DNA of 58,944 nt from a bacterium (GTDB lineage Bacteria; Electryoneota; Electryoneia; Electryoneales; Electryoneaceae): NCBI GenBank assembly GCA_020444265.1, contig JAHLLH010000008.1, forward strand, positions 1 through 58,944, given 5' to 3'. A model generated the notes under the pieces. The model was not told the origin of the DNA. It ran no database searches and saw only the letters and a list, made by a program, of their open reading frames with translations. The position numbers and the translations under genes are program-made. Below are positions 22,458-58,078 of the stretch, piece after piece. The first letter of the stretch is position 1. Each line of letters opens with the position of its first letter.

Positions 22458-22510
22458 TTCCGCCAGGTCTCCTGACCTGGCGGAAAATGAGTCAGGTCGT
22501 GAGACCTGAT
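22458..22510. repeat. Bipartite palindromic repeat (BIME-like unit 1)
   Basis: First hairpin CGCCAGGTC/GACCTGGCG (22461-22482; extends to TTC/GAA), then TCAGGTC/GACCTGA (22492-22509). It lies inside the polyamine operon, between speE and speB. Confidence 0.85.
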
Positions 22511-22543
22511 ACAACAACTGGTTCACCCTGAATAGCTCGGTAT

Positions 22544-23422
22544 CTACAAACCTAGTTCCCGTTTCACAAAACTCGGCTGAGCAAAAGCGGCTTTGTGCAG
22601 GTCACGGTTGTAGTACTGGCCACCTTCCTCAATCGGTTCCGCACGCTCTTGATCAACATCTGCCACCGGATCAATGCCTTTGCTGGCGTACCCGAAGGAC
22701 CATGTGCCCGAAGGATAGACCGGAATCTGGCTGGAGAACGTCTTGACCACAGGGAAAATCTTCTGCAATGTCTCAACAATAACCTTCAGCATCGGCATGT
22801 TATACCAGGCCGATTCCGCCTGGCAGACCATGATTCCATCATCGGCGAGGATACGGTCCACGTTCCGGTAGAACTCTTCGCCGAAGAGTCCAAGAGCAGG
22901 GCCGAAGGGATCGGTTGAATCGATCAGCACGATATCGTAGCTGCCATCCGGCGCAGTTTTCACATGCTCTATGCCGTCGCCAATGATCAAGTCGACTTTC
23001 GGGTTGTCGTACGCCGCGGCGATCTTCGGCAAATGCTCTTTGCAAATGCGTACCACCTCACCATCGATCTCAACCTGACGGGCCAGCTCTACGGATGGGT
23101 GACGAACCACTTCACGAAGCGTGCCACCATCGCCCCCACCGATCACCAGCACCCGTTTCGGGTTAGGATGGGAGAGCAGGGGAACATGGACGATCATCTC
23201 GTGGTACGCAACCTCGTCCCGTTCGGTCAGCATCACGCAGCCGTCCATCACCAACAATTTGCCGTGAGTTTCCGTCTCGTACAGTTCGATCATCTGTAGC
23301 GGAGACTGGGCACTCTCGATGGTCTGGACAATGCGAAAACTAAGGCCAGTGCTTTCCGGAAACCATTCCGTAAACACCAGCCCCATTGCGTTTTCCTGAG
23401 TTGGCAAATTCTGCTCACTCAT
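22544..23422 (-). CDS. speE: Spermidine synthase-like aminopropyltransferase (SpeE)
   Basis: 292 residues from the ATG at 23422, with GGAG upstream; an upstream TTG six bases earlier is unnecessary. The aminopropyltransferase core is clear: LLVMDGCVMLTERDEVAYHE, then VLVIGGGDGGTLREVVRH (decarboxylated-SAM loop), VEIDGEVVRICKEHLP and DIVLIDSTDPFGPALGLFG. It transfers the aminopropyl group of decarboxylated SAM to putrescine or agmatine. The start is 2 bp from the pdaD stop, a tight operon with speD and pdaD. Cytosolic. Confidence 0.95.
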   Translation of the reverse strand: MSEQNLPTQENAMGLVFTEWFPESTGLSFRIVQTIESAQSPLQMIELYETETHGKLLVMDGCVMLTERDEVAYHEMIVHVPLLSHPNPKRVLVIGGGDGGTLREVVRHPSVELARQVEIDGEVVRICKEHLPKIAAAYDNPKVDLIIGDGIEHVKTAPDGSYDIVLIDSTDPFGPALGLFGEEFYRNVDRILADDGIMVCQAESAWYNMPMLKVIVETLQKIFPVVKTFSSQIPVYPSGTWSFGYASKGIDPVADVDQERAEPIEEGGQYYNRDLHKAAFAQPSFVKRELGL

Positions 23423-23424
23423 GG

Positions 23425-23922
23425 TCAAACATCTCCATAGCCGAAAACAACCGCCGCAAACGTGGATCCGATGCTGGTGACATGATGCTCGACGGAGGTC
23501 GAAAGGATTTCTTTCACTTCACGGCCTCGTGCCTCGAAGGCATGACGCGCCATGTCGCGGACAATCTCTTCCGCACTTTCCTTGCTTCCGCGTGCCGAGT
23601 ACTCCATGATTACACCCGGCAGTTCCGGATCCACCGGCACCGCACAGGCCACCGCAGCAGCGATGGTCTCGCCCGGAAGGTGGGAGGTGATGGAGGCATA
23701 AGCGACTGGTGTCAACGATCCCGGCTCGAGCTTAAAGCGGTCCACCTGCGTGCAACTGGGCGGCAGGATGCTGGACAGTTTCACCAGGTTCACATCCCCG
23801 ACACTAGCGTTCAACAAGGCGGCGTCGAACGCATTCAAGGGTGTATACCCCTCCGCTGCACCGGCGGTAAGGAAAAATTTCGTAGGACGAGGGATGCTGT
23901 GCACGGGCTGCTCGTTATGCAT
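23425..23922 (-). CDS. Pyruvoyl-dependent arginine decarboxylase
   Basis: 165 residues, the full length of the pyruvoyl arginine decarboxylase family. The self-cleavage site is the Ser-Ser pair 50/51 in NLVKLSSILPP, which generates the beta chain and the pyruvoyl-carrying alpha chain. ATITSHLPGETIAAAVACAVP-like segments and a terminal glycine-rich strand (AAVVFGYGDV) complete the trimer fold. It makes agmatine from arginine. It starts 2 bp after the speD stop and ends 2 bp before speE, a compact operon. The choice of the pyruvoyl enzyme rather than the PLP-dependent SpeA is typical of archaea, chlamydiae and several deep bacterial lineages. Confidence 0.92.
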   Translation of the reverse strand: MHNEQPVHSIPRPTKFFLTAGAAEGYTPLNAFDAALLNASVGDVNLVKLSSILPPSCTQVDRFKLEPGSLTPVAYASITSHLPGETIAAAVACAVPVDPELPGVIMEYSARGSKESAEEIVRDMARHAFEARGREVKEILSTSVEHHVTSIGSTFAAVVFGYGDV

Positions 23923-23924
23923 GA

Positions 23925-24407
23925 TCAGGCTACCTTGGTGTGAGCGTTACCATTGCTGTGCTGGAAGTGGCCATTCCCTGCACCATTCCCATTCTTTGCA
24001 AAGTCGGGCATCTCCGCATCTACCGCAAGTGGCTTGTGTACACCGTTCGCCTGTGGGAGCAGACCACGCTTCATTTCGACAACGGACATGTTCTGCGAAC
24101 CGAGACGTTCCTCGAGAAGCTCGAAGCCCTTCATCGGGTCTACTTCGGTTCCACAGGTGAAGAGGTCCACCGCCGCATAGCCATACTCCGGCCAGGTGTG
24201 AATCGCAAGGTGTGACTCGGCAATGACAACAACACCACTGACCCCGAAGGGGCTGAAACGATGAAAGACTTTCTCGACGATGGTGGCACCGCTGACAATC
24301 GCGGCATCCTGCATGGCTTTTTCGATCCCGGCGAGATCGTCCAGCATCTGCTTGTCGCAGTCATAAAACTCAACCATCAATTGATGGCCAAGAGCCTGAG
24401 TGGTCAA
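23925..24407 (-). CDS. speD: S-adenosylmethionine decarboxylase proenzyme (SpeD)
   Basis: 160 residues starting with TTG at 24407, selected because AGGAGG lies at proper spacing and the resulting N-terminus ([17 protein letters not shown]) aligns with the normal SpeD start; an ATG ten codons later would truncate a conserved strand. Self-cleavage occurs between E64 and S65 in [12 protein letters not shown], giving the pyruvoyl serine; C85 in DLFTCG is the conserved catalytic cysteine. It makes decarboxylated SAM for SpeE. The C-terminal 30 residues are a low-complexity Asn/Gly/His tail ([19 protein letters not shown]), unusual for this family. First gene after the XRE regulator, with a 101-bp leader containing three hairpins. 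Confidence 0.95.
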
Positions 24408-24425
24408 GGTTGGATCCTCCTACAA

Positions 24426-24501
24426 CACCGGATCATCCGGTGGGAACGTCTCCGGCAGCCTCACTGCCGTACTTGTTGCTTTCAGCACTCCATGGTGGAG
24501 T
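24426..24501 (-). promoter_or_regulatory. Three-hairpin leader between the XRE regulator and speD
   Basis: In the 101-bp gap three perfect hairpins occur: ACTCCA/TGGAGT (24487-24501), CGGCAG/CTGCCG (24453-24469) and CACCGGAT/ATCCGGTG (24426-24442). The last ends just before the AGGAGG of speD, so it could occlude or expose it. No known riboswitch consensus is recognised. The array also resembles the hairpin strings at 1-180 and 31680-31752, so regulation is only one reading. Confidence 0.5.
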
Positions 24502-24508
24502 ACTGCGA

Positions 24509-25060
24509 TCAGAAAAACGGGGGGCTTGTTACCCAAAGAAAGCTCGCGTCACGCTGTGACACGTTTTCAATCGTCAATTCGTAGTCGCCCTTCGCATAGA
24601 AGGACTGCTTCTTCGATGCCTTATCAGTACGGCCCGCGTAATGAACCGCGACCCGGCCCGACAACACATACCCGAACTGTTCACCGCTGAAAGGCTCCAG
24701 GCTGGTTGATTCGCCGGGAGCAAGGTGGACACGGATCGGCTCCATCTGACGATTGGCCGCACCGGGTACCAGGGCGATGAACTGGCTGACTCCTTCACGA
24801 TCGAGTTCAACGGTTTCCGAATCTCGGAAGACGACTCGTGCGCCTCGCTGGGGACGGAAAAAGTCCGAAATGTGGATGTTCAAGGCATCCAGGATCATGA
24901 TCAAGCTGTCAATCGAGATCGATACTTTCCCACGCTCCAGCTGGCTGATGAAACCTGCCGTCAAGTCGGCACGTTCCGCCAGTTCGCCCTGGGTCATCTC
25001 GGCCGCTGTCCGTAGACGGCGAATCCGTGATCCGATCTCTTGAAGCTTTTCAGGAGCCAT
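24509..25060 (-). CDS. XRE family regulator with C-terminal cupin domain (PuuR-like)
   Basis: 183 residues. The helix-turn-helix spans about residues 9-63 (IGSRIRRLRTAAEMTQGELA, then LTAGFISQLERGKVSISIDS), followed by a cupin (about 100-178) with LAPGESTSLEPFSGEQFGYVL and ENVSQRDASFLWV. This architecture is that of PuuR and related regulators that sense polyamines or amino acids through the cupin. Placement directly upstream of a complete spermidine operon, same strand, supports a role as its regulator (inference). ATG 25060 has no obvious ribosome binding site; two direct copies of ACTATACTAA lie immediately upstream and suggest autoregulation. Confidence 0.9.
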   Translation of the reverse strand: MAPEKLQEIGSRIRRLRTAAEMTQGELAERADLTAGFISQLERGKVSISIDSLIMILDALNIHISDFFRPQRGARVVFRDSETVELDREGVSQFIALVPGAANRQMEPIRVHLAPGESTSLEPFSGEQFGYVLSGRVAVHYAGRTDKASKKQSFYAKGDYELTIENVSQRDASFLWVTSPPFF

Positions 25061-25092
25061 ACTATACTAAAATTCCGTTGTTACTATACTAA
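25061..25092 (-). promoter_or_regulatory. Candidate operator/promoter of the XRE-cupin gene
   Basis: ACTATACTAA occurs at 25061-25070 and 25083-25092, exactly 22 bp apart (two helical turns), as TTAGTATAGT on the gene's strand. The distal copy contains TATAGT, a possible -10. The proximal copy directly abuts the start codon. A dimeric XRE repressor binding both would block its own transcription. Seen: the repeats and spacing. Inferred: their role. Confidence 0.55.
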
Positions 25093-25285
25093 CATTAAAA
25101 TGTGGCCGGTAATATAGCCGGTCCCTCCGTTTTGCACAATAGGGTAATGGTCCTCCGGAGCCCTCAACTAGAAGAATAGTGAGGATGGAATGTTAGTGAC
25201 ACTATGAGGGGTTGATAAGGCGAAGAACAGCCAGATATTCAAGAATATAAAAGGGTTTCAGGCTGTGAGGAGGTGAAGAGAACTA

Positions 25286-25942
25286 CTAGTCGTTTCGTGG
25301 ATCCGCATTCATTTTTGCCAGAAGCAACGAGACCTGTTTTCTGGTTAACACTCGGTAGTGCGGCTGATAGTTTTGCTGGTAAGTATCCGAATGGTGGATG
25401 GCGGGCCATTCGTTCGCTTTTAAGAGTTCGGTGAGTTCGTCAAATCGCGCCAAATCGAGTCCGTGCAGAGAGTAGTTGGCAACAGAAAGCCGTAACTCAT
25501 CCCAGACCTTCGGTAGCCGGGCTGGGTCGGGTTGAGACTTCGCCGACTCGATCTGCGCGTGCGCCAGTGCCTCGATTGATCCTCCTGCCGCGATGTAGGG
25601 AGCGAGGTAGAGACGGCTGTAGTGTGGACCAATCTCTTCCACCATCCGGTCCGACTGCGTGGAATCCACCGTCATCCCCTCTACTTCTTTACGCAACCAC
25701 GTCTCCACAGGACCATAGGACATGCCATAGTGCCCCGGCCCGCGTGTCGCCTGGAAGAGTAGTTTGTAGGCATCCTCCTCGTTCATCATGGGGTATCGAT
25801 CCATTTGCTCACGAACCAAATCGAGGTAGGGGGTGAGATCCTGTGTGGTTGGTGGATCAGATTCAGCAGTCGCCGGACGGGGTGTCAGGCCGAGAGAAAG
25901 AACGAATAACAGGGCCCCCACCCGAACGAATCGACCGATCAC
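25286..25942 (-). CDS. Exported protein of unknown function coupled to the PorV-like gene
   Basis: 218 residues starting with GTG that overlaps the stop of the PorV-like gene (GTGA), so it is translationally coupled. A signal peptide is present (VRVGALLFVLSLGLTPRPATA). The mature protein is mainly helical with Tyr- and Arg-rich patterns, for example EEDAYKLLFQATRGPGHYGM and PHYSRLYLAPYIAAGGS. I have seen similar hypothetical proteins in Bacteroidetes-like genomes but cannot name a family or function. Periplasmic location is inferred. Its partner suggests an envelope role. Confidence 0.75.
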   Translation of the reverse strand: MIGRFVRVGALLFVLSLGLTPRPATAESDPPTTQDLTPYLDLVREQMDRYPMMNEEDAYKLLFQATRGPGHYGMSYGPVETWLRKEVEGMTVDSTQSDRMVEEIGPHYSRLYLAPYIAAGGSIEALAHAQIESAKSQPDPARLPKVWDELRLSVANYSLHGLDLARFDELTELLKANEWPAIHHSDTYQQNYQPHYRVLTRKQVSLLLAKMNADPRND

Positions 25943-26910
25943 CGCACCGCACCCCAGTGGTAGCCGACGCTGATACGGTGGGTTGCGCCGAGGTCATCGT
26001 GCCCGACAAACGCGTAGTCGAGGCCGATGGGCCCAATGGCGAGTCCTGCACCGTAGCTCAGACGGTCATCATCCATACCGCCGCGCAGCGAAACGATGTT
26101 CCGAATCGTCCACTCGAGCCCGACATGGGGGATGAAGGCATTCTCGGTGCCGAGGGCTTCGCTGCGGAATTCTGCTTCGACCACAGGGGTTGCAATCGCA
26201 TTGAACCGTTCGACCGGGAACGAGAATGCGGCACCAGCACGCAGGGTCGGCTTGATAGCCTCCTGACGACCACCTTCCCAGGTCAGCAGGGTGGTGATCG
26301 CGTCACGCAACTGTGCACCCAGGACCAACCCGCCGAATCGTTTCGTATATCCGAGGTCGAAACCAAGCCCGAAACCATCTGTGGTGTCGAGCCGTTTGTA
26401 GAGCAGCTTCGCCGCGCCGCCGATTGTGCCGTAGGGACGGTCCTGGCTGTAGGCGAGCAGGAAGGCATATTCGGAAGCGCTCGTCCAGTTGGCGACGTAG
26501 GGACGGTTTTGTGGGTTAATGCCGCTGCTGCGGTCACGGAGTGCGGTCACCGGGATGTCATCGACTCCCTGACGAACCAGCCCGAAGCCGATGGCGTGGT
26601 CCCCGTTGTTCCGTGCCCAAGCGGCATGATCCACTTTGACAGCGGACTCAAAACGGTCCGCGTGCATCAATGATACACCCTGCCCCGCGAGAAAGCCGAT
26701 GCGCGATGGATTTCCCAACACAGCGGAGGGACCGTCCGAAATGGCGACTCCCGCTCCGCCCAGTGCGAGCAGGCGTGCGTTGGATTGGCCGGTGATGAAA
26801 TCTCCGGCATACTTGGCATCCCAGTCAAATTCGGCGTACGACGGCAGCGCCAGGCTCAGCAACGCGAAGCCGGCGACAAGAGTGATTATGCGGCGGTGCA
26901 GTGTCATCAT
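25939..26910 (-). CDS. PorV/PorQ-like (UPF0164) outer-membrane barrel protein
   Basis: 323 residues with a signal peptide (ITLVAGFALLSLALPSYA). The N-terminal signature SNARLLALGGAGVAISDGPS, then AVLGNPSRIGF, is the hallmark of the UPF0164/PorV family (G-G-A-x-x-A, x-NPA-like turn). The remainder is a 14-strand-type barrel with Gly/aromatic periodicity. In Bacteroidetes, PorV/PorQ proteins shuttle or anchor type IX secretion cargo, which fits the sorting-domain proteins at 19.2 and 42.8 kb. Start ATG-ATG with GGGAG just before. The function here is inferred from the family. Confidence 0.85.
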   Translation of the reverse strand: MMTLHRRIITLVAGFALLSLALPSYAEFDWDAKYAGDFITGQSNARLLALGGAGVAISDGPSAVLGNPSRIGFLAGQGVSLMHADRFESAVKVDHAAWARNNGDHAIGFGLVRQGVDDIPVTALRDRSSGINPQNRPYVANWTSASEYAFLLAYSQDRPYGTIGGAAKLLYKRLDTTDGFGLGFDLGYTKRFGGLVLGAQLRDAITTLLTWEGGRQEAIKPTLRAGAAFSFPVERFNAIATPVVEAEFRSEALGTENAFIPHVGLEWTIRNIVSLRGGMDDDRLSYGAGLAIGPIGLDYAFVGHDDLGATHRISVGYHWGAVR

Positions 26911-28880: not shown

Positions 28881-30101
28881 TTACTCATACCGCAAGCTGA
28901 CAATAGGATCCATGCGGCTCGCTTTCCAAGCAGGCCAGGTTCCGAAAACCAGGCCGATAAAGCTGCAGAAGAGGATACCGACCATCACACTCCACGCCGG
29001 TACCGCGACTGGTAAGTCGGCTGCCTTGCCTAGCAGGAAGGCGCCTGCAACTCCTACCACTACGCCAATGAACGCACCGATTTCTGTCAGGATGACCGCT
29101 TCAACGAGGAACTGACTCATGATCGAACGCCGTCTTGCGCCGAGTGCTTTACGCACCCCGATTTCACGGGTTCGTTCGGTCACCGAGACCAGCATGATGT
29201 TCATAATCCCCACACCAGCGACAATCAGGGCGATGGAAGCGATCCCAAAGGCGGCGATTCGGATCCACTTGGTCATGTCATTGAAGCTGTCCACGAGCTG
29301 GTTCGAATGGAAGATACCGAAATTGTTCTTTTCACCCGGTTTTACGTTCCGTGCGCCACGCAATGCAGCAACCGTCTGGTCAATGCAATCCTGGATTTTC
29401 GAAGGGTCGCTGGTCTGCACGGTGATAAACCAGCTTCGGCGATCGCCCCACCAGCGGGTAAAGGTGGTGATGGGCACGACACAGTGGTAGTCGGAATTGT
29501 CGTTGAACATGCTGCCACGTCCCTCGAACACACCGACCACTTGTGCACGGTTACCATTGATGGTCACATATTCCCCGACTGGATTTCGGAAGGGGAAGAG
29601 TTTGTTGGCGACACCTTGCGCGAGTACGACCACGGGTCTCGCAAAATGAACATCCTGGTCGGTGAGAAATCGTCCCCGTTCGACCATGTAGCCGTTGTTT
29701 GGAGCGAAGCCGGGAACTCCACCAGCGACGACGATATTCGGGTTGGTTGCCTCGTCCTTGTACTTGACCGTGATGACATATTTCCACACCTCCGGTGCCA
29801 CAATCTGGGCGAGGGGGACATTTTCCTCAATGGCACGGACTTCACGCATCCCGATCTTAGGCGGCGATTCCCGTCGCCAGTGGTTGCCATTGAAATCCCG
29901 CTCAAACTGCTGCACCTGGAAAACGCCAGCGGAGAGGATCGACATCTCCTTTTCGACCATCTGTTGCAGGCCGCGGATCACCGACATCGTAGCGATGATG
30001 GTCATGACGCCGATGATCACCCCGAGCAGGGTGAGTGAGCTGCGAAGCTTTTGCGAGACAATGCTGTCCAGCGCAATGCGGAAGGATTCTATGAGGTTCA
30101 T
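28881..30101 (-). CDS. MacB-type ABC transporter permease, type A (copy 2)
   Basis: 406 residues with the MacB/LolC layout: an N-terminal membrane helix (LRSSLTLLGVIIGVMTIIATM), a large periplasmic MacB core domain, and three C-terminal FtsX helices starting FGIASIALIVAGVGIMNIML, with ERTREIGVRKALGA before helix 3. No ATPase domain. It is more similar to the permease at 31880 (same start MN-ES-R and the same C-terminal box) than to its direct neighbour at 30282. Together with that neighbour it forms the second A/B pair. It is the last gene of the export operon on the minus strand. Confidence 0.93.
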   Translation of the reverse strand: MNLIESFRIALDSIVSQKLRSSLTLLGVIIGVMTIIATMSVIRGLQQMVEKEMSILSAGVFQVQQFERDFNGNHWRRESPPKIGMREVRAIEENVPLAQIVAPEVWKYVITVKYKDEATNPNIVVAGGVPGFAPNNGYMVERGRFLTDQDVHFARPVVVLAQGVANKLFPFRNPVGEYVTINGNRAQVVGVFEGRGSMFNDNSDYHCVVPITTFTRWWGDRRSWFITVQTSDPSKIQDCIDQTVAALRGARNVKPGEKNNFGIFHSNQLVDSFNDMTKWIRIAAFGIASIALIVAGVGIMNIMLVSVTERTREIGVRKALGARRRSIMSQFLVEAVILTEIGAFIGVVVGVAGAFLLGKAADLPVAVPAWSVMVGILFCSFIGLVFGTWPAWKASRMDPIVSLRYE

Positions 30102-30134
30102 GGCGTACTCACCTTACCGGTTGTGTCTTTTTGT

Positions 30135-30188
30135 TGCGTCCGGTCTCCGGACCTGACGCATCTTTCGCTCAGGTCGGGAGACCGGACA
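30135..30188. repeat. Bipartite palindromic repeat (BIME-like unit 2)
   Basis: TGCGTCCGGTC/GACCTGACGCA (30135-30160, one mismatch), spacer, then CAGGTC-GGGA-GACCGG (30170-30185). Between permease genes. Confidence 0.75.
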
Positions 30189-30205
30189 GAACAGTCCTAC
30201 ATCGT

Positions 30206-30262
30206 TGTGTCAGGTCCTCAGACCTGACACATGATTCCGTCAGATCTGAGGATGTGACGGAA
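30206..30262. repeat. Bipartite palindromic repeat (BIME-like unit 3)
   Basis: TGTGTCAGGTC/GACCTGACACA (30206-30231, perfect) followed by TTCCGTCAGATC/GATGTGACGGAA (30235-30262, one mismatch). Variable outer bases are complementary within each hairpin. Confidence 0.85.
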
Positions 30263-30281
30263 CACTCGTTCTGGAACATCT

Positions 30282-31508
30282 TTACTCCGACCTGAGCGCG
30301 ACGATAGGATCCAACCGACTCGCTTTTGCGGCCGGGAAAATCCCGAATAACAAGCCGACGGTGGCCGAAAAACCGACCGCCGCGAGTGCAAGCCAGAGTG
30401 GTAGAGAAACCGGCAACTGCGATTTGATCGCGGCACCCGCAGCGGCGGCCAGTCCAAGTCCCAGCAGCCCCCCGGCACTGCAAATCAGCATCGCTTCGAC
30501 CAGGAATTGCCACAAGATGTCTGTCGTCTTGGCACCGACTGCCTTGCGCATCCCGATCTCCCAAGTACGTTCGGTGACCGAAACGAGCATGATGTTCATG
30601 ATCCCCACTCCACCAACCAGCAGGGCAATGCCGCCAATGATCAGCCCGGCTGCGTAAATGCCAGACGTCATCCGTTTGTAGAACGACTCGAGCATCTCCT
30701 GGCGATTGATGACAAAATTGTCTTCTTCGAGGGGTTTCAGCTCACGGGCTCGCCGCATCAGGTAGTGCATTTCATCCTCGAGATCATCCACCGACACTCC
30801 TTCGGCTGCCTTCGCAACGATTTGGACACCACGACGGTGACCGTACACCTTTTCGAAGGTCGAGAGGGGGATGACGACACGTTTGTCCATTGTCTCGCCG
30901 AAGGATTCTCCCTGTTCGGTGAGGATGCCTACGACACGGAAACGGTTGTTGCCGATGCGGATATCCCGTCCCATCGGGTTGACCGAACGGAAGAGATCGT
31001 CCCGAAGGTCCGATCCAATCACACAGACTTGGCGAGCGGCGCGTTCGTCTGTGTGGCTGAAGAAACGGCCTACGTCCAGATCAAAGCCGGAGGCATCGAG
31101 ATACTCTGGCGTTGCGCCGTTGATGCGCACTCGTTCGAGGCGCTCATCACGGTACCCGACCGTGCGACGGGTCCCGGCACCAGCGGCAACAGCGTAGGCA
31201 TCCTGGCTGTGGTCACGCAGGTACTCGTAGTTCGCTGCGGTCACTTCTGGACGATTGATGTACTTCCACCAGGAACCGTCCGTAATGATCCACGGCCACC
31301 GTTCGATGTAAATGGTATTGGACCCGAGGATGGAAAGCTGGCTGGTGAACGAGGTGTTCAACCCCTGGATAATCATCAGCATCACGGTAACCGTGAGCAC
31401 ACCGATGACAATACCCAGGGTCGTCAGCAATGACCGGGTCTTGTTGGCGATCAGGGCGCGGAACGCAATGTTCAGCCCTTCTCGCAGAGTTGTCGTTGTA
31501 AACGCCAT
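30282..31508 (-). CDS. MacB-type ABC transporter permease, type B (copy 2)
   Basis: 408 residues. The N-terminal helix reads RSLLTTLGIVIGVLTVTVML, the core periplasmic domain follows, and the C-terminal FtsX part has AAGLIIGGIALLVGGVGIMN and ERTWEIGMRKAVGAKTTDIL. It resembles the permease at 33330 (ERTWEIGMRKAIGAKTSHIL) far more than the adjacent type A permeases (ERTREIGVRKALGA). Start ATG at 31508 has only a weak ribosome binding site. It likely pairs with the type A permease at 28881 as a heterodimer. The 3' end is followed by two bipartite repeats. Confidence 0.92.
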   Translation of the reverse strand: MAFTTTTLREGLNIAFRALIANKTRSLLTTLGIVIGVLTVTVMLMIIQGLNTSFTSQLSILGSNTIYIERWPWIITDGSWWKYINRPEVTAANYEYLRDHSQDAYAVAAGAGTRRTVGYRDERLERVRINGATPEYLDASGFDLDVGRFFSHTDERAARQVCVIGSDLRDDLFRSVNPMGRDIRIGNNRFRVVGILTEQGESFGETMDKRVVIPLSTFEKVYGHRRGVQIVAKAAEGVSVDDLEDEMHYLMRRARELKPLEEDNFVINRQEMLESFYKRMTSGIYAAGLIIGGIALLVGGVGIMNIMLVSVTERTWEIGMRKAVGAKTTDILWQFLVEAMLICSAGGLLGLGLAAAAGAAIKSQLPVSLPLWLALAAVGFSATVGLLFGIFPAAKASRLDPIVALRSE

Positions 31509-31648
31509 ACTGGGCTCGCGCAGGAGTTCCGGCTCCTTCTATGCGCACCTGGACCGCGATCCACACAATTGGATCTCGTCCAACAGCCCCAATCCCTATG
31601 GAGGTGAGACACTCTCACCGGATAATAGGTTACAGCTGAATCGACTGG

Positions 31649-31752
31649 CCCGACACTTTCGTGTCGGGTTTCTTCGGTGCGAAGATTGCTTCGCGTATTG
31701 CGGTTACCCAGAACGCGGTCATGGACCGCGTATACACGGGCAAGATGCCCGT
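31649..31752. repeat. String of four short hairpins between permease genes
   Basis: CCCGACAC/GTGTCGGG (31649-31668; third copy of the hairpin at 2812 and 3192), CGAAG/CTTCG (31680-31693), GCGGTC/GACCGC (31715-31729) and ACGGGC/GCCCGT (31736-31752). This fills most of the 370-bp gap between permease genes together with the bipartite unit at 31820. Confidence 0.75.
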
Positions 31753-31819
31753 ACTACAGGGTGGCCAGTGATTTTTGTCCTGGGTTTCAGTGTCCATTCG
31801 TACTGTACATCTTTCATGT

Positions 31820-31875
31820 TTCGTCGGGTCTCCTGACCCGACGAATATTCGGTCAGGTCGGGAGACCTGACCGAA
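31820..31875. repeat. Bipartite palindromic repeat (BIME-like unit 4)
   Basis: TTCGTCGGGTC/GACCCGACGAA (31820-31845), TATTC-like spacer, TTCGGTCAGGTC/GACCTGACCGAA (31848-31875). Both hairpins perfect; loops TCCT and GGGA mark opposite orientation. Confidence 0.9.
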
Positions 31876-31879
31876 CAAC

Positions 31880-33106
31880 TTACTCGTATCTCAGCGCTTC
31901 GATCGGATCCAAGCGGCTTGCTCTCCATGCAGGCCAGGTTCCGAAACCTAAGCCAATGGCGGAGGAGAAGAGGATGCCGACGATCACACTCCAAAGCGGC
32001 ACTGAAATCGGCAGGTTGGCCGCGCCACCGAGCAGGTAAGCGGACCCAATACCGACCCCGACCCCGATCAGCGCCCCGATTTCCGTCAGGATGACCGCTT
32101 CGACAAGGAACTGTGCCAGGATCGAAGTACGTTTCGCGCCGAGTGCTTTGCGGACTCCGATTTCACGGGTTCGTTCGGTGACCGACACCAGCATGATGTT
32201 CATGATGCCGACCCCGGCGACGATTAGCGCGATGGAGGCAATGCCAAAGGCGGCGATCTTGATCCATTTGGTCATCTCGTTGAAGCTGTTCACAAGCTGG
32301 TTCGAGTGCCAGATGGCGAAGTTGTTCTCGTCGCCCGGTTTCAGGCCGCGCGCGGCACGCATGGCGATGGTCGTCTGCTCGATCGCTTTGTCCATCTTGG
32401 TCGGGTCTTTCGCCTGGACCGTGATCGCGTAAGATCGTTCCTTTCCGAACCAGCGCTCGAAGGTGGTGATGGGGATCAACGCCACATGGTCCGCATTCTG
32501 GTTGAGCATGGACCCTTTTTCCTGCAGGACACCGATCACCTGGGCACGTTGCCCGTTGAGCGTCACGTGCTGCCCCACCGGGTCACGGTAGGGGAAGAGA
32601 CGTCTCGCGATGGCGGCGCCAATCACGACGACCGAGCGGGCGTATTGCAAATCCTGTTCGGTGAGGTTGCGTCCGTTCTCGATACTATGACCGTTGTTGG
32701 CAACAGTCGCGGTCACTCCACCGAAGAGAGTGTTGTTAGGTGGCGTGGCATCGTTCTTGTATTTAATCTGCACGCCCCATTTATGAATCTCCGGGGCGAC
32801 CATGCTGACCTGGGGTACATTCTGCTGGATGGCTCGGACCTCTTCCATGCCGATGTGGGGACGGTATTCCCGTTTCCTGCCGCCGACATGCATCCCGACC
32901 TGAACGTCATATCGCTGGACCTGGAAAACGCCTGTCGACAACTCGGACATCTCGTTTTCCATCATCTTGTTAAGGCCACGGATCACTGACATGGTGGCGA
33001 TGATGGTCATCACCCCGATGACCACACCGAGCAGGGTCAGCGAGGAACGAAGTTTGTTCCCCGCGATACTTGCCACCGACACCCTGTAGGATTCGAGCAT
33101 GTTCAT
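31880..33106 (-). CDS. MacB-type ABC transporter permease, type A (copy 1)
   Basis: 408 residues from the ATG at 33106, whose N-terminus MNMLESYRVSVASIAGNKLR aligns with MNLIESFRIALDSIVSQKLR of the type A permease at 28881; the longer reading from 33151 is not needed. Same MacB core and C-terminal FtsX helices (AAFGIASIALIVAGVGIMNI, ERTREIGVRKALGA). It is the A member of the first A/B pair. It ends just before a bipartite repeat. The periplasmic domain should contact the HlyD-type adaptor encoded upstream. Confidence 0.93.
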   Translation of the reverse strand: MNMLESYRVSVASIAGNKLRSSLTLLGVVIGVMTIIATMSVIRGLNKMMENEMSELSTGVFQVQRYDVQVGMHVGGRKREYRPHIGMEEVRAIQQNVPQVSMVAPEIHKWGVQIKYKNDATPPNNTLFGGVTATVANNGHSIENGRNLTEQDLQYARSVVVIGAAIARRLFPYRDPVGQHVTLNGQRAQVIGVLQEKGSMLNQNADHVALIPITTFERWFGKERSYAITVQAKDPTKMDKAIEQTTIAMRAARGLKPGDENNFAIWHSNQLVNSFNEMTKWIKIAAFGIASIALIVAGVGIMNIMLVSVTERTREIGVRKALGAKRTSILAQFLVEAVILTEIGALIGVGVGIGSAYLLGGAANLPISVPLWSVIVGILFSSAIGLGFGTWPAWRASRLDPIEALRYE

Positions 33107-33124
33107 CGAGCTGGTTCCCTTTGT

Positions 33125-33184
33125 TGCGTCAGACGCCCACGTCTGACGCAATTCCCGTTGTGTCAGATCCGTAGATCTGACACA
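33125..33184. repeat. Bipartite palindromic repeat (BIME-like unit 5)
   Basis: TGCGTCAGAC/GTCTGACGCA (33125-33150) and TGTGTCAGATC/GATCTGACACA (33159-33184), both perfect. The inner hexamer is CAGATC rather than CAGGTC in the second hairpin, changed on both arms. Confidence 0.88.
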
Positions 33185-33208
33185 GAATTCGCGCCATTGG
33201 CACGATCA

Positions 33209-33310
33209 TCTGTCAGGTCACCGCTGCGCTAAGGACCTGACAGAACAACAATTCTTCCGTCAGACTCAGGGGTCTGACGGAACAACAGTCAGGTCAGGAG
33301 ACCTGGCTGA
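33209..33310. repeat. Further palindromic repeats of the same family
   Basis: TCTGTCAGGTC/GACCTGACAGA with a 14-nt loop (33209-33244), then the bipartite unit TTCCGTCAGAC/GTCTGACGGAA (33255-33282) and CAGGTC-AGGA-GACCTG (about 33290-33305). They occupy the gap between two permease genes. Confidence 0.8.
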
Positions 33311-33329
33311 ACGGTTCTTCGGAACTCTT

Positions 33330-34565
33330 TTACTGCGCCCTGAGCGCGCTGATGGGGTCGAGACGAGCGGCTTTTGCCGCAGGGAAGATGCCGAAGACAA
33401 TCCCGACTCCTGCCGAAAAGAGGACCGCCATCCCCGCCAACCAGAGCGGGAGAGAGGTCGGCAAGACATTGTTGATCGCAAGGCTGCCGAGGTAGGCAAG
33501 CCCCAGGCCGACAACACCTCCTAACACGCAGATCATCATCGCTTCGACCAGGAATTGCCAGAGGATGTGGCTGGTTTTCGCGCCAATCGCTTTTCTCATC
33601 CCGATTTCCCAGGTCCGTTCGGTCACCGAGACCAGCATGATGTTCATAATGCCGATCCCACCAACCAGCAGACTGATCCCGCCAATAATCAACCCAGCGG
33701 CATAAACTCCGCCGGTCATGGTTTTGTATAAGTTCTGCAAGGCCGCCTGACGATTGATCGAGAAGTTGTCATCATCCTGCGGTTTGAGATTTTTGGAGGT
33801 ACGCATGATGCCGGTCAGTTCATCGACCAGGGCATCGATCTCCACTCCATCTTTCGCCTTGACAGCGATTTGCAGGGAACGGTTTCGTCCAAAGGTGTTG
33901 AGCAGGGTGAACGTCGGAATGATGATGGTATTGTCTCGGCTCATACCGAAGGTCGAGCCCTGCTTTTCGAGGATACCCACCACACGGAACTGGTAATGCC
34001 CAACACGGATATCCCGTCCAATCGGATCAAGCGGGCCGAAAAGCTCGTTTTGAACGTCCTGACCGATTACACAAATACGCCGTGAACTGCGGTTGTCCGA
34101 GTCATTGATGAACCGTCCGAATTCCGGCACCGTACTGCTCACATCAATGAAGGAAGGAGTCGCACCCATGATCTGCACACCTGTGAGGGTCTTGTCACGG
34201 TACGCAATGGGGCGTGAGGTGCCGGTCAACGGGGCAACTGCGGCTGAAAGGTCCGACCGGTTGAGGATATCCTGGTAGTTCTCTATGGTGACTTTCGGAC
34301 GATTGATGTACTTCCACCACTCGTCATCCCAAATCCAGGGGTACTGATCCACATAAACCGTGTTGCTGCCGAGGAAGGAGATTTGCTTGGCAAACGAAGC
34401 GTTCAACCCCTGAATGATCGTCAGCATCAGGGTCACTGTCACCACCCCGATGATAATGCCGAGGGTGGTCAGCGCCGCACGGGTCTTGTTCGCCAACAAT
34501 GCTCGGTTGGCGATGACAAACCCTTCTGCGAGGGCATGGGAGATGGTGGTCAACTTCTTGGCCAT
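33330..34565 (-). CDS. MacB-type ABC transporter permease, type B (copy 1)
   Basis: 411 residues. N-terminal helix ANKTRAALTTLGIIIGVVTV, MacB core domain, and C-terminal AAGLIIGGISLLVGGIGIMN with ERTWEIGMRKAIGAKTSHIL. The ATG at 34565 has AAGGA upstream. First permease after the ATPase gene. It forms the first A/B pair with the gene at 31880, while the type B copy at 30282 pairs with 28881. The ATPase gene is 139 bp upstream, across a hairpin (ACGGGGTC/GACCCCGT, 34620-34638). Confidence 0.92.
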   Translation of the reverse strand: MAKKLTTISHALAEGFVIANRALLANKTRAALTTLGIIIGVVTVTLMLTIIQGLNASFAKQISFLGSNTVYVDQYPWIWDDEWWKYINRPKVTIENYQDILNRSDLSAAVAPLTGTSRPIAYRDKTLTGVQIMGATPSFIDVSSTVPEFGRFINDSDNRSSRRICVIGQDVQNELFGPLDPIGRDIRVGHYQFRVVGILEKQGSTFGMSRDNTIIIPTFTLLNTFGRNRSLQIAVKAKDGVEIDALVDELTGIMRTSKNLKPQDDDNFSINRQAALQNLYKTMTGGVYAAGLIIGGISLLVGGIGIMNIMLVSVTERTWEIGMRKAIGAKTSHILWQFLVEAMMICVLGGVVGLGLAYLGSLAINNVLPTSLPLWLAGMAVLFSAGVGIVFGIFPAAKAARLDPISALRAQ

Positions 34566-41249: not shown

Positions 41250-41655
41250 TGTACTGGCCCGGACCTGCGGCCCGGGTTTATCCTGTTTTCTCACCCTTTT
41301 GGGTGCCCCGGCTTGGCTTGCAAGCCGGGTTTTTGTAACGGATCAATCGTCCGATCTTGATCGGACCCCTTTTCGCGCCAAAGGCGCGATTCAGATGCAG
41401 GCCAGGGTGTCCAACCCCGGCAATGCGAACCATACGGTTTGCGTTCCCTATTGCGCCTTTGGTGCGACGATCTGTCAGGTCAGAGGACCTGATGGAACAG
41501 CGAAGCGGTCGATGGGCTGCGCCCATCCTCGCCGGGGTTGGAAACCCCGGCCTACACTGGACAAGATCTTCAGACTCGCGGCCTGACGGTGTGTAGTCAA
41601 GCCACCTGTTACATGCTGATATGCACGCTTGGGTGACGGGGCACCCAAGCCACTT
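41250..41655. repeat. Dense array of unrelated hairpins between dnaJ-like and htpG genes
   Basis: No ORF in 430 bp. Recognisable stems include CCCGGCTT/AAGCCGGG (41307-41329), TCCGATC/GATCGGA, TCGCGCC/GGCGCGA, GCGAACC/GGTTTGC, TCTGTCAGGTC/GACCTGATGGA (41471-41495; a half unit of the bipartite family), GATGGGC/GCCCATC, GCCGGGGTT/AACCCCGGC and GCTTGGGTG/CACCCAAGC. Each is followed by a short linker. Stem sequences differ, arms stay complementary. This resembles the array at 1-180. Confidence 0.8.
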
Positions 41656-49087: not shown

Positions 49088-49214
49088 ACCCCCCTCAAGG
49101 GTTTGGTCAGGGCTAAGATGTGTGCTAGAGGTTACGGTTCAGCAGTGCCCTGTGCAAGCAGGGAAGGGGGTTGGGAGGTCTGCTCGGTGGGAAGCGAGAG
49201 GCAATATTCCCGGT

Positions 49215-49275
49215 TCTGTCATGTCCCCCGACCTGACCGAAAGATACGGCAGGTCGGGAGACCTGCTGTAACGTG
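49215..49275. repeat. Bipartite palindromic repeat (BIME-like unit 6)
   Basis: GTCATGTC-CCCC-GACCTGAC (one mismatch), spacer AAGATAC, then GCAGGTC-GGGA-GACCTGC. A near-identical direct copy lies at 49491. Confidence 0.85.
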
Positions 49276-49280
49276 GACAA

Positions 49281-49462
49281 CCTGTCATCCCCAGGCCCCA
49301 TGTCCGGCAGCTGCCGGACAAGGTGTTTGTGTTGGGGGCGTCGGGGATCCCCGTTGGTCGAAGCCGCCAGGGTGTGACACCTGTGATGGGGATTCCCGAC
49401 GCTCGCCGGTTCACTTCGTTCACGATCCGGCTGCCGCCGGATTGCGAGCTGGGAATGACAGG
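49281..49462. repeat. MITE-like element, 182 bp, TIR CCTGTCATCCCCAG
   Basis: Ends CCTGTCATCCCCAG and CTGGGAATGACAGG. Inner hairpins TGTCCGGCAG/CTGCCGGACA and ATCCGGC/GCCGGAT. It shares long blocks with the copy at 52658. It is flanked on both sides by direct copies of the bipartite repeat. Confidence 0.85.
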
Positions 49463-49490
49463 TGGATGTAAGATTAGTCCTCTTCCAGGT

Positions 49491-49547
49491 TCAGTCATGT
49501 CTCCCGACCTGACCGAAAGATTCGGCAGGTCGGGAGACCTGCCGTAA
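49491..49547. repeat. Bipartite palindromic repeat (BIME-like unit 7)
   Basis: GTCATGTC-TCCC-GACCTGAC followed by CGGCAGGTC-GGGA-GACCTGCCG (perfect). Direct repeat of unit 6. Confidence 0.9.
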
Positions 49548-49615
49548 CAGGCTATGTGCGATCTCAATCCTGCGTTAGATATTCGGAATTGACGCAACCC
49601 GCTTAGCCTCATATC

Positions 49616-52573: not shown

Positions 52574-52590
52574 CTAGTTCGGCGAACATG

Positions 52591-52648
52591 TTCGGTCAGA
52601 TCTCCTGATCTGACCGAAAAATGCGTCAGGTCAGGAGACTTGCCGCAA
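52591..52648. repeat. Bipartite palindromic repeat (BIME-like unit 8)
   Basis: TTCGGTCAGATC/GATCTGACCGAA (52591-52618, perfect), then GCGTCAGGTC-AGGA-GACTTGCCGC with mismatches. The two arms carry the same A/T exchange in the first hairpin. Confidence 0.85.
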
Positions 52649-52657
52649 CGGCTGAAT

Positions 52658-52835
52658 TGTCATCCCCAGGCCCCATGTCCGGCAGCTGCCGGACAAGGTG
52701 TTTCTGTTGGGGCCGTCGGGGATCCCCTTTGATCGAAGCCATCAGTGAGTGCAGTCTGCCATGGGGATTCCCGACGCTCGCTGGTTCACTTCGTTCACGA
52801 TCCGGCTCGTGCCGGATTGCGATCTGGGAATGACA
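52658..52835. repeat. MITE-like element, 178 bp, TIR TGTCATCCCCAG
   Basis: Ends TGTCATCCCCAG and CTGGGAATGACA. It shares long blocks with the copy at 49281 (for example TGTCCGGCAGCTGCCGGACA and TTCACTTCGTTCACGATCC). A further half hairpin (GCAGGTC-AATG-GACTTGC) follows at 52846-52866. Confidence 0.85.
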
Positions 52836-54266: not shown

Positions 54267-54284
54267 TTACACCCCAGAAACGAA

Positions 54285-54314
54285 CATGGCCCGGGCAACA
54301 TTGCTCGGGCCATG
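54285..54314. terminator. Bidirectional terminator hairpin between convergent genes
   Basis: CATGGCCCGGGC (54285-54296) pairs with GCTCGGGCCATG (54303-54314) with one G-U pair. T-rich sequence (CCATTTTAC) follows on the plus strand. Confidence 0.75.
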
Positions 54315-54334
54315 CCATTTTACACCTACCACTA

Positions 54335-55291
54335 TCAAAACGTAATGAAATAAACCCCTTCCACCTGTTCCACAAGCGCATCATGCCCTTCTGCTGCCGC
54401 GGGATTGATCGCATTGGTGATGGTGACACGATCACCGTTCTGCAAATCTTTGAATGTCACGCCGATCGGGCCGCCATTGGTGACACGATTGGCGAAGAGA
54501 CCGGTACCATCTGCGTTCAATGAAGGCTTTGTTGCCCCGAGAATCTCGGTATCAATGTTGTTGTTCAGGGCAAGATGGACACGGACCACATCGGAGAGGC
54601 TGCCTGGGTTCAGTTGGCTGGCGAAGACAAAATTGTTGGTCGGTGCCCAAATGATATCCGTGCCGATCCGGTCCCCGATCTCGAGGACGTCCAATGTTTC
54701 GAGGGGAGCGTAGCGAAGCGCCAGCCCGGGAGTGCTCGAGTTGACGAGATAGACGAGGCGTGTACCATCGGGTGAGATGGCAGCATGACTGCCCTCGTTG
54801 GCCAGCAGTTCGGTCTCGCTGCCTTCAAGAGTAAACTGGACAAGTCGTCCTTCCGCATCTGTCATCACCAGTGATGCATCATCGACCCAGGCGGGATTCT
54901 TCCCCGGTCCCAATTCAAGGAAACCATCGGTGCCGAAGAAAACAACCAGCACACCGCCGCTCGGATTGGGGGTGCTGAAGGCGACAATTGAACCATCCGG
55001 GGAAGGCGTGTAGTCATGGTTATGGGCACCGATGTAGACCGTTTCAACGTTACCGTCCAGGTCGGAATAGTAAATCCCCGGATCGCCTCGCCCTTCCTGG
55101 TAGACAAAAAGGAAGGAGCTGTACTCATTGTCGATCCAGACCGGTGCAGCCCCATCTTCGACAATCAGGGTGCGGTCAATCACCACTTCGTCTTCCGGCG
55201 GATCATCCGGGGAAGGGCACCCGATGACCGCGATGGACAACACGGCTACCAACAAAGCAACCAGCCATTTACCGCGCATAACGTATCTCAT
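54335..55291 (-). CDS. Lipoprotein with TolB/WD40-like beta-propeller
   Basis: 318 residues (ATG at 55291 or, equally possible, 55279). A lipobox is present (LSIAVIGC, C25). Repeats of the type SPDGSIVAFSTPNPSG, SPDGTRLVYLVNSSTPG and NADGTGLFANRVTNGG are characteristic of PD40/TolB propellers. Its start overlaps the end of the DUF4139 gene in another frame, so it is coupled. An outer-membrane-associated binding or quality-control role is possible but not shown. Confidence 0.85.
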   Translation of the reverse strand: MRYVMRGKWLVALLVAVLSIAVIGCPSPDDPPEDEVVIDRTLIVEDGAAPVWIDNEYSSFLFVYQEGRGDPGIYYSDLDGNVETVYIGAHNHDYTPSPDGSIVAFSTPNPSGGVLVVFFGTDGFLELGPGKNPAWVDDASLVMTDAEGRLVQFTLEGSETELLANEGSHAAISPDGTRLVYLVNSSTPGLALRYAPLETLDVLEIGDRIGTDIIWAPTNNFVFASQLNPGSLSDVVRVHLALNNNIDTEILGATKPSLNADGTGLFANRVTNGGPIGVTFKDLQNGDRVTITNAINPAAAEGHDALVEQVEGVYFITF

Positions 55292-56603
55292 AGCTCACCG
55301 TTTCTGTCAGTCCGGCTCCGACCGGGACATCAAAGCGTGCCGTGCGTGCATCCACACGCTGGTACTCGACCGCATCACCACCACCGGTCATCGTGATCGA
55401 CCAGTCGCCGAAGAGACGTTCCAACACACGGACCGTGACCATCTCGCGTCCCGAGTTACCGAGGGTAACCTGGACTCCCTGAACGGTCTCGCCTTCCTCA
55501 CGCGCACCTTCCGCCGTACGAATCCGTTCCGCAGAGAGGTCGAAAACCTGGCCCAAGGTCAGCTCGAGGGTTGAACCAGCGGGGGTATCGTCGATGGTGT
55601 CCTCGCCGGTAAACATTGCGGGTCCATCATCACGTTCGAAAACTCGGACGATTCCGCCGGGCAAGGCGGATGGCAGCGAGAAGGCGAGCTTGGCGCTGGC
55701 ACGGTCATCAAAGATGGTCGCGTCATAGACATAATACCGCTCGACATCCCGCCCGACCAGTTCGCCCCGTGGATGGAGGGAGGTTATCCCGACGGTCAGG
55801 GTGCCGGGGATATCGATTTTCCAGAAACGGAGATCGCCGGTTTTGAAGGTCGGGTCGTAACCCGAGGCACCCGGTTTGGGGTTGAGACGATCCACGCGCC
55901 GTTTGTCACCAGCCCTGTGAATATCTCCACCAACAAGGTTGAGGAGACCGTACTCAATCCGTTCCCCAGTCGTATTGGTGATCGCAAATCCTGGGCTGAC
56001 CGTCGCGACTCCTTCGGCCAGAGCAACCCGGTGCGCACCGGACCAGTGCAAACCATCCACCATGTAGGTCAGTTTCAACTGGCGTTTTCCGTCAATGGTG
56101 GTGCTGCAACGTAAAATCAGGGTTGGTTCAGTTACCAAGCCTGCCGGGATGGTTTCGATCTCAAGGGATTTGTCCGCCTGTGACCTTGCCACGATCTCCA
56201 GCATCCCCTCCCGATCCAGGAAGAGGTTGGATGAGGTCACTCGTTTCAGGATGCCGGTCGAGATGGTGTCATCATGGAAGATGGTAAGGTCCTCCCCGAC
56301 ACGAGCGTCCCAATACTTGTCGATATCCAGTAGGTTGGTGTTGAACTGAACCGACTCGAGGTGAATCTCCGCTCCCTTGGTCACCTCCACACGGACCGAA
56401 CCATCCACGATGGCTGGCACAATACCGGTGATGAAGAGGTCATGAGTGCCCTTATCCAGCTCGACCGATCTCAGTTCGGTCACGACACCCAGGTCACGGG
56501 TGTAAAGGGTCAGATGCCGAAAAATCTCGCCTGCCTGCAGCAGGGAAGGGATCAACAGGAAGAGGGTCAGCAAAAGAGCGGTGGGGGAAATCCCGCGTTT
56601 CAT
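55269..56603 (-). CDS. DUF4139 domain-containing exported protein
   Basis: 444 residues from the ATG at 56603 with GGAG upstream; the longer reading from 56645 is unsupported. A signal peptide (TALLLTLFLLIPSLLQA) is followed by LTLYTRDLGVVTELRSVEL and an early beta-rich region, then the DUF4139 part: LTYMVDGLHWSGAHRVAL and ITNTTGERIEYGLLNLVGGD, ending in VSYEIRYAR. Proteins of this family are found in many phyla with no assigned function. Its 3' end overlaps the next gene by 11-23 bp. Confidence 0.85.
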   Translation of the reverse strand: MKRGISPTALLLTLFLLIPSLLQAGEIFRHLTLYTRDLGVVTELRSVELDKGTHDLFITGIVPAIVDGSVRVEVTKGAEIHLESVQFNTNLLDIDKYWDARVGEDLTIFHDDTISTGILKRVTSSNLFLDREGMLEIVARSQADKSLEIETIPAGLVTEPTLILRCSTTIDGKRQLKLTYMVDGLHWSGAHRVALAEGVATVSPGFAITNTTGERIEYGLLNLVGGDIHRAGDKRRVDRLNPKPGASGYDPTFKTGDLRFWKIDIPGTLTVGITSLHPRGELVGRDVERYYVYDATIFDDRASAKLAFSLPSALPGGIVRVFERDDGPAMFTGEDTIDDTPAGSTLELTLGQVFDLSAERIRTAEGAREEGETVQGVQVTLGNSGREMVTVRVLERLFGDWSITMTGGGDAVEYQRVDARTARFDVPVGAGLTETVSYEIRYAR

Positions 56604-56669
56604 GGTCCACTCCGTAGGGTTGGTCGTCGATGAAAAAAGATACAACAGCAGATGCGAGGATGCTCAGCG

Positions 56670-56776
56670 GTGTCTGTCACGAATTACAGTCTTACCATGT
56701 CCGATTCAACGTACTTGTGATCGGTTCATCATGATTGAGGAAGAAATCCAGGGCAGCGGTAATTCGTGACTGTCAC
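56670..56776. repeat. Inverted repeat element with GTGAC-type ends, 107 bp
   Basis: GTGTCTGTCACGAATTAC (56670-56687) and GTAATTCGTGACTGTCAC (56759-56776) are inverted with two mismatches. The 71 bp between have no ORF. It lies between the PAS gene and the DUF4139 gene. Confidence 0.75.
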
Positions 56777-56790
56777 GAGAGACAGTGCTC

Positions 56791-57303
56791 CTACAACAGT
56801 GACTGCACCCGCTCACGCAGCCGTTCGACCTCGTTGCCCATCTCCTGCAAACGCTCGTCAAGGCTGAGCAGCTCGGACGGGTCACGGCCGATGATCACAG
56901 CGCCGACAATATTGTTGGTGTCGTCAATCACTGGTGCAACATGCACGGTGAGGGTGAGGGCGGGCGCATTGACTCGCTGAACCGTCCATGGGCCCATCTG
57001 GGGACGACCCGTTTCGAAGGCGCTTTCCAGCATGGGGATCAGGGAATTGGGCAGTGCAGCGGTGATGGCATCCTCAAGGTGCGCACCGATGTCATCCCTG
57101 GTGACGTTCAGCAGGTTACGTCCGACAAGGTTGACATCCTGGATGTTCAACACGCGGTTCACAACCAGCATCATGTCGAGGCTCGCTTCGGAAATCGCTT
57201 CGTACCGTGCCTTGATCTCCTTCAGACGCGCCTCACTACCGCGTAGCTTGGTCGCTTCTTTTTTCAGATGCTGGTAATCGTCCCAGAATTCCTGCTGATC
57301 CAT
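56791..57303 (-). CDS. Small PAS domain protein between two coiled coils
   Basis: 170 residues. An N-terminal coiled coil (WDDYQHLKKEATKLRGSEAR, about residues 6-38), a PAS-like fold (about 38-138, with LVVNRVLNIQDVNLVGRNLL and HVAPVIDDTNNIVGAVIIG) and a C-terminal leucine-zipper-like helix (RLQEMGNEVERLRERVQSLL). There is no kinase, cyclase or DNA-binding output domain, so it probably acts by dimerising or by partner binding. The PAS ligand is unknown. ATG 57303 has GAGGACC upstream. Confidence 0.85.
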   Translation of the reverse strand: MDQQEFWDDYQHLKKEATKLRGSEARLKEIKARYEAISEASLDMMLVVNRVLNIQDVNLVGRNLLNVTRDDIGAHLEDAITAALPNSLIPMLESAFETGRPQMGPWTVQRVNAPALTLTVHVAPVIDDTNNIVGAVIIGRDPSELLSLDERLQEMGNEVERLRERVQSLL

Positions 57304-57394
57304 GCGGTCCTCACGTCAATATTCGGGTTGGCAACCAATGTAGGCCGGACGATTGGTTCAAGCAATGAACTGTTGGGAGGGGGGACGTTCATCG

Positions 57395-57572
57395 TGTCAC
57401 CCCGGACTTGATCCGGGGCCCAGCATCTGCTGTTGGGGACGTGCTGCTTGATCTGATTTGGGTATCCTGTGATAGAGGCGTGTGAGGGCTCTGGACCTCT
57501 CACCACGAGGCTGACCAGCGTACAACGTCGAATCATCCTCGGCTGGATCCCGGGTCGTGGCCCGGGATGACA
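57395..57572. repeat. MITE-like element, 178 bp, TIR TGTCACCCCGG
   Basis: Left end TGTCACCCCGGACTTGATCC, right end with CCCGGGATGACA; each end contains its own hairpin (CCCCGG/CCGGGG; CCCGGGTCGTGGCCCGGG). It has the same size and TGTCA ends as the copies at 49281 and 52658 but a different inside, so a second subfamily. A bipartite repeat follows. Confidence 0.75.
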
Positions 57573-57593
57573 GTGTAGCCGATCAGGGGAGTA

Positions 57594-57650
57594 CTGTCAG
57601 CTCTTCAGACCGGACAGAAAATGCGGCAGGTCGAGAGACTTGCCGCAACG
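57594..57650. repeat. Bipartite palindromic repeat (BIME-like unit 9)
   Basis: CTGTCAGCTC-TTCA-GACCGGACAG (imperfect), then GCGGCAGGTC-GAGA-GACTTGCCGC. Decayed relative to unit 10. Confidence 0.7.
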
Positions 57651-57703
57651 TGATTCACCAATAGACACCGAAGTTGAAGCTTCGTGGAATCGAGTACCGC
57701 TCC

Positions 57704-57913
57704 TTACTCTGTCTCCGCAGCTGTGTCGGCCTCTTTCTGCTTTTTCTTGTCTGCTGCGAAGATGCCTACCTGCGCAAACAAGCTGATAACCGCACCTGCT
57801 CCAAGCACACCCTGGATCTTCGGATATGCGTCTGTCCCGATCAGAAGAATTGAGCAGAAGATGATCACCACTCCCCAGATTATCGCCTGGGCAAGGATTA
57901 AACGACCCTTCAT
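57704..57913 (-). CDS. Small two-helix membrane protein
   Basis: 69 residues. Two membrane helices (ILAQAIIWGVVIIFCSILLI and VLGAGAVISLFAQVGIFAA) joined by a short loop, and a Lys/Glu/Ala-rich tail (DKKKQKEADTAAETE). ATG has GGGGGATCC upstream. No homology recognised. Its position between repeats does not inform its function, but the topology and ribosome site make it a real gene. Confidence 0.7.
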   Translation of the reverse strand: MKGRLILAQAIIWGVVIIFCSILLIGTDAYPKIQGVLGAGAVISLFAQVGIFAADKKKQKEADTAAETE

Positions 57914-58022
57914 GGATCCCCCGAACGTGTAAAAGCACCTGTAAATCGTCTCGTTCTCCGCATCATAGAGAAAAGCGGGCTCTTCTGCAAGTACCCGCGT
58001 CGAAACAAGGAATATTTCTTCG

Positions 58023-58078
58023 GTTCGGTCAGGTCACCCTATCTGAACGAAAACGCGGCAGGTCGGGAGACCTGCCGC
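58023..58078. repeat. Bipartite palindromic repeat (BIME-like unit 10)
   Basis: TTCGGTCAGGTC...CTGAACGAA with a decayed first hairpin, then GCGGCAGGTC/GACCTGCCGC (58055-58078, perfect, loop GGGA). Confidence 0.8.

Follow-up and report, generated by a model that had tools for sequence, protein, structure and literature searches.

Inverted palindromic doublets and a candidate RAYT partner in a probable relative of Candidatus Electryonea

The DNA analysed here (a stretch of 58,944 nucleotides, referred to as the window) carries short palindromic units in its intergenic gaps, which raises the question of whether these units form a family kept for its structure and, if so, whether that structure is kept in DNA or in RNA and which protein, if any, serves the family. 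Judged by genomic criteria, the repeats are a variant of the REPIN/RAYT systems described previously (PMC3116915, PMC2817692, PMC6006769), most likely residing in a relative of Candidatus Electryonea; NCBI taxonomy assigns Candidatus Electryonea clarkiae to Candidatus Electryoneota, within the FCB group.

Architecture and genomic distribution of the units

An earlier note on this DNA had listed eleven units of two hairpins each, and every one of them was located again, displaced by 1-3 bases at most. Ten are indeed doublets of ~60 bp made of two inverted 28-nt hairpins, whereas the one placed at 33125 resolves into a single hairpin followed by a three-hairpin composite. The standard unit runs from an initial G through a 12-bp stem closed by a 4-nt loop, a linker of 1-2 nt, and another stem-loop of the same dimensions to a final C. 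Each REP reads 5'-GTT-NN-GTCAGGTC-loop-GACCTGAC-NN-3', and two REPs are joined in inverted orientation, 1-2 nt apart, with their GTT tags at the outer ends.

The ten REPINs (all features are given on the + strand) begin with 22457..22515 (78.1 bits with model R1, E 1.7e-15), which has arginase-family and spermidine-synthase genes on either side. It is followed by 30133..30192 (65.9 bits), 30204..30263 (66.7 bits), which belongs to a subtype with CTCA/TGAG loops, and 31818..31876 (82.3 bits); the latter two fold as single-stranded DNA into two hairpins, with z -7.5 and z -9.2, respectively. Next come 33254..33312 (66.6 bits) and the near-duplicates 49213..49272 (75.0 bits) and 49489..49548 (76.7 bits), then 52590..52649 (77.8 bits), which has the stop codon of a lipocalin-like gene 16 bp ahead of it, 57591..57649 (70.7 bits), and 58023..58081 (72.1 bits). 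Read directly from the sequence, the single hairpin is a REP of the CAGACG-CCCA-CGTCTG subtype at 33123..33151 (hairpin 33123-33152, stem 12), and the composite at 33157..33246 is composed of a REP, a degenerate GCGCC hairpin, and a long-loop GTCAGGTC hairpin ending in AAC, a layout that is matched at two other loci of the genome (L083 and L068). A degenerate single REP at 41471..41498 (30.4 bits over 41450-41498), also read from the sequence and absent from the earlier list, lies in a repeat-rich gap. Four tandem MacB-like permease genes (28881-30101, 30282-31508, 31880-33151, and 33330-34565) have REPs in every gap between them, and unit density in this region (28881-34565) is far above the genome average.

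The family is not confined to the window. A covariance model built from the ten window units, together with a whole-genome search, as the earlier note had proposed, finds it at >80 places in the genome. Likewise, the 4.33-Mb genome contains 96 instances of CAGGTC-N4-GACCTG and 0 of a reversed-pattern control, and the dispersed short intergenic palindrome GTCAGGTC-N3..33-GACCTGAC forms 105 exact hairpins compared with 1 for its reversed control. The genome stretches examined yielded 78 distinct units, including 65 full inverted-REP doublets (51 non-redundant). Their loops fall into subtypes: TCCC/GGGA, CTCA/TGAG, and CAGACG-CCCA-CGTCTG, the last of which is paired with a GGCTCGGGGGCC-type hairpin. 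Family units or hairpins lie 64-86 bases from the starts of contigs C3, C4, and C6 (L063, L123, and L122, respectively); thus, the assembly is interrupted close to repeats of this family, and the copy numbers given here are minimum values. Hairpins of another kind, TCGCGCC-N3-GGCGCGA with free loops, number 49 genome-wide compared with 1 in the control (for example, at 41373-41389 in the window); they are often joined to GTCAGGTC hairpins as three-hairpin composites, and no RAYT was seen beside them.

The probable RAYT partner and its relatives

The earlier note had reported no RAYT transposase, which is correct for the window; nonetheless, the search for a RAYT/TnpA-REP protein that it recommended reveals five in the genome, one of which, RAYT-A, is bracketed by the family in question. 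Three of the five were found with Pfam Y1_Tnp and two more with the more sensitive NF047646. The family flanks none of the first three, and Y1_Tnp alone would have wrongly suggested that it has no partner RAYT; RAYT-A is one of the two revealed by NF047646.

RAYT-A (G000:C11:414312-414794, locus L004) encodes 160 aa with HVH and YIHNNPV motifs, i.e., a RAYT with HUH and a single Tyr, and is flanked by REPs of its own family. Upstream, the best-scoring unit of the genome (85 bits) stops 26 bp short of the start codon; downstream, a single inverted-type REP with a GGGA loop lies 18 bp past the stop codon. RAYT-A scores 73.4 bits against NF047646, under the curated cut-off of 80, and Pfam Y1_Tnp gives no match at 0.001; among solved structures, its sole match is 4ER8, E. 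coli TnpA-REP (E 0.0037).

Other palindromes bracket the remaining four RAYTs, one for each, so that five RAYTs have five palindromes: GCTTGGGTG/CACCCAAGC (L120), CCCGACACT/AGTGTCGGG (L003), TGTAGGCCGGATTC/GAATCCGGC (another RAYT of the genome), and a TTATTAGTGACAGTTACTAAT-type palindrome (L001). The CAGACG subtype is without a RAYT of its own in this genome. Members of these other families also occur in the window. The second REP family, CCCGACACT...AGTGTCGGG, has three copies (2810-2833, 3192-3211, and 31647-31670; 6 strand-matches vs. 0.24 expected), and a copy of GCTTGGGTG/CACCCAAGC, the palindrome around the L120 RAYT, is found at 41627-41650. In addition, GTGACAGT...ACTGTCAC palindromes at 19144-19182 and 56670-56776 are similar to those around the L001 RAYT, which is encoded on the same contig as the window. 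A longer repeat that starts with TGTCATCCCCAGG and contains CCATGTCCGGCAGCTGCCGGACAAGG is present at 49276-49470, 52650-52830, and ~5017-5107, the copies having inner palindromes in common; one copy sits between the near-identical REPINs at 49213 and 49489, and the repeat is possibly a MITE.

The coupling between RAYT-A and its palindrome extends to other species. Across 84,980 named genomes, 74 relatives were found, including 23 with 44-54% identity, from Candidatus Zixiibacteriota, Candidatus Electryonea clarkiae, LCP-89, Calditrichaeota, Ignavibacterium, and others. Of the 23 close homologues, 19 have AGGTC...GACCT within 300 bp, whereas only 6 of the 51 less similar RAYTs do (Fisher p 4.7e-9); the remaining four close homologues carry self-complementary cores of different sequence (CAACATC/GATGTTG, CAGGTG/CACCTG, CAGGGTC/GACCCTG, and CCGGGTC/GACCCGG). 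Beside RAYT-A homologues, upstream copies keep GTT and downstream copies keep AAC at their outward-facing ends, and their inner sides show no comparable conservation, which indicates that GTT is a one-sided tag. The loops of copies beside related RAYTs range from 4 nt up to secondary hairpins, whereas the stem core stays. It is possible, although the proposal is tentative, that recognition in this clade depends on the GTT guide and the eight-base stem core GTCAGGTC/GACCTGAC, that the loop can take any form between four bases and a second hairpin, and that the single short hairpin, rather than the doublet, is under constraint. If so, the 23 RAYT-REP pairs, including the four with changed cores, would constitute a natural data set for the DNA-hairpin code of the transposase.

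Within the phylum, RAYT-A homologues (45-54% identity) are present in six other genomes. Hairpins of the GTCAGGTC type occur in 6 of the 7 genomes with a detected clade-A RAYT and in 10 of the 32 without (39 phylum genomes), a tie that is only loose. A cousin system was found in genome G007, in which GTCAGGTG/CACCTGAC flanks a RAYT and is also dispersed. At L140 (the same place as L177), a clade-A RAYT has the Tyr of YIHxNPV replaced by His, and the loops of its flanking REPs are very long; this RAYT is possibly inactive or specialised.

Covariation and its competing explanations

In the alignment of the ten window units, 87.9% of cells are paired, and two-sided changes affect 10 of 24 pairs (25 such cells vs. 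8.5 in shuffles). The covariation score is 0.315 compared with 0.129 in shuffles, none of 500 shuffles equals it, and it is lost when partners are shifted by one to three columns. Thus, the stem covariation that the earlier note had described is real, and the paired core change CAGATC/GATCTG is present in hairpin A of the unit at 52590..52649. The further claim that structure rather than sequence is kept holds for the compensated pairing of the stems but not for the stem core (GTC.GGTC) and the GTT tag, which are conserved as sequence too. Among the 51 non-redundant units, within-hairpin pairing is 89.5%, a value that drops to 77.2% (sd 0.7) once each 3' arm is replaced by that of a different unit. 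The most variable stem positions (3, 4, and 6) change with compensation and the core is nearly invariant; for example, position 4 of hairpin A is C-G in 16 units, G-C in 15, T-A in 15, and A-T in 4, with one mispair. Pairing of the outer arms as one long hairpin gives no signal in the same units (74.8% vs. 76.0% shuffled). Some copies (L004 and 49489) fold as one long hairpin; nonetheless, the doublet as a whole is not kept as such a hairpin, as a REPIN in the sense of Bertels and Rainey would be. The compensatory changes in the stems preserve each short hairpin, not the unit as a single long hairpin. Compensatory changes in REPs were noted earlier (PMC2817692, PMC3116915), and covariation alone is therefore not new.

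The repeats are very probably REPINs, a non-autonomous mobile family served by the RAYT-A of its own genome. This bears out the BIME-like, REP-based reading of the earlier note, in that the units are inverted REP doublets with true covariation, and the family probably spreads with the help of this domesticated transposase. By analogy with the TnpA-REP of E. coli, Stenotrophomonas, and Marinomonas, from which the individual steps are taken (PMC8266576), the RAYT would bind one strand of the REP folded as a hairpin in single-stranded DNA, the 5' tag would serve as a guide that selects a dinucleotide cleavage site, and cleavage and rejoining by the RAYT would place new copies of doublets in intergenic DNA, which tolerates insertions. 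On this view, the paired stem changes would result from selection for a hairpin that the RAYT can bind, with template-switch repair of imperfect palindromes possibly adding to the covariation. Pairing within each hairpin and strand symmetry are as expected of a DNA hairpin substrate.

Template switching is an established mutational mechanism for quasi-palindromes. The covariation might thus be purely mutational, i.e., imperfect palindromes are perfected so that both arms change together without constraint, which would also yield the strand symmetry and the pairing of each short hairpin. However, the invariant core, the GTT tag, the spread through the genome, and the coupling to one RAYT clade are left unexplained, and this account appears rather unlikely as a whole; template switching can add to the REPIN/RAYT explanation and does not replace it.

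It is much less likely that the units are RNA elements, with hairpins in the 3' UTR that would terminate transcription or shield the mRNA and with selection on RNA driving the covariation. REPs elsewhere can act in mRNA (PMC3733652), and in co-directional gaps the units tend to sit just downstream of genes, at a median of 28 bp from the stop codon. Such a function predicts an excess of G-U mispairs; however, transcript strands show 22 G-U and 25 A-C mispairs (p 0.77; 37 units placed in co-directional gaps, a comparison of modest power that relies on simple longest-ORF gene calls, with three window units assigned by hand). Since G-U is no commoner than A-C on transcribed strands, the hairpin structure appears to be maintained at the level of DNA, not RNA. 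In addition, 5 units lie in divergent gaps (vs. 37 in co-directional and 17 in convergent ones, the three kinds being used roughly in proportion to their length), unit orientation relative to genes shows no clear preference (23 vs. 14), the consensus is without U-runs, and Rfam gave no match. Finally, a MITE of a DDE-type insertion sequence with short terminal inverted repeats would account for the inverted-repeat ends and the dispersed intergenic copies and is nevertheless barely credible, given that no consistent target duplication flanks the 78 units (by eye) and that the protein bracketed by the family is of the Y1/HUH rather than the DDE type.

Relation to known REP systems

The REPIN/RAYT reading, which is based on genomic data, points to a multi-family system, with five RAYTs each having its own palindrome, in a little-studied phylum for which no description of REPs was found in the open-access literature. 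Its tag lies outside the textbook GT[A/G]G, it provides statistical support for REP structure kept per hairpin in DNA, and the pairs of RAYT and REP core across species make the specificity of a domesticated transposase testable.

In their general layout, the units resemble the GTAG- and CGTC-tagged REPs (Di Nocera 2013, PMC3733652), which are also short hairpins located near the 3' ends of genes and form head-head doublets that are sometimes 1-2 bp apart. CGTC REPs are characterised by an unpaired CGTC tag and A-T pairs that start the stem and are reportedly without a transposase; the family described here departs from this combination, as it has a RAYT and its CGTC is paired inside the stem. 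The RAYT/REP systems of Stenotrophomonas and E. coli (Nunvar 2010, PMC2817692; TnpA-REP, PMC8266576, PDB 4ER8) are closer in that a Y1 HUH gene is flanked by inverted REPs, REP copies are dispersed, and REP and RAYT diverge together. Their head, however, is GT[A/G]G at the 5' foot of the hairpin, whereas here it is GTT[C/G], and here the loops vary freely while the core stays. The REPINs of Pseudomonas fluorescens (Bertels and Rainey 2011, PMC3116915) share intergenic inverted-REP doublets, RAYT partners, compensatory changes, and the presence of several families and RAYTs per genome. In contrast to these elements, which have a spacer of tens of bp, the units described here have a spacer of only 1-2 nt and a GTT tag, and their covariation favours two short hairpins over one long hairpin.
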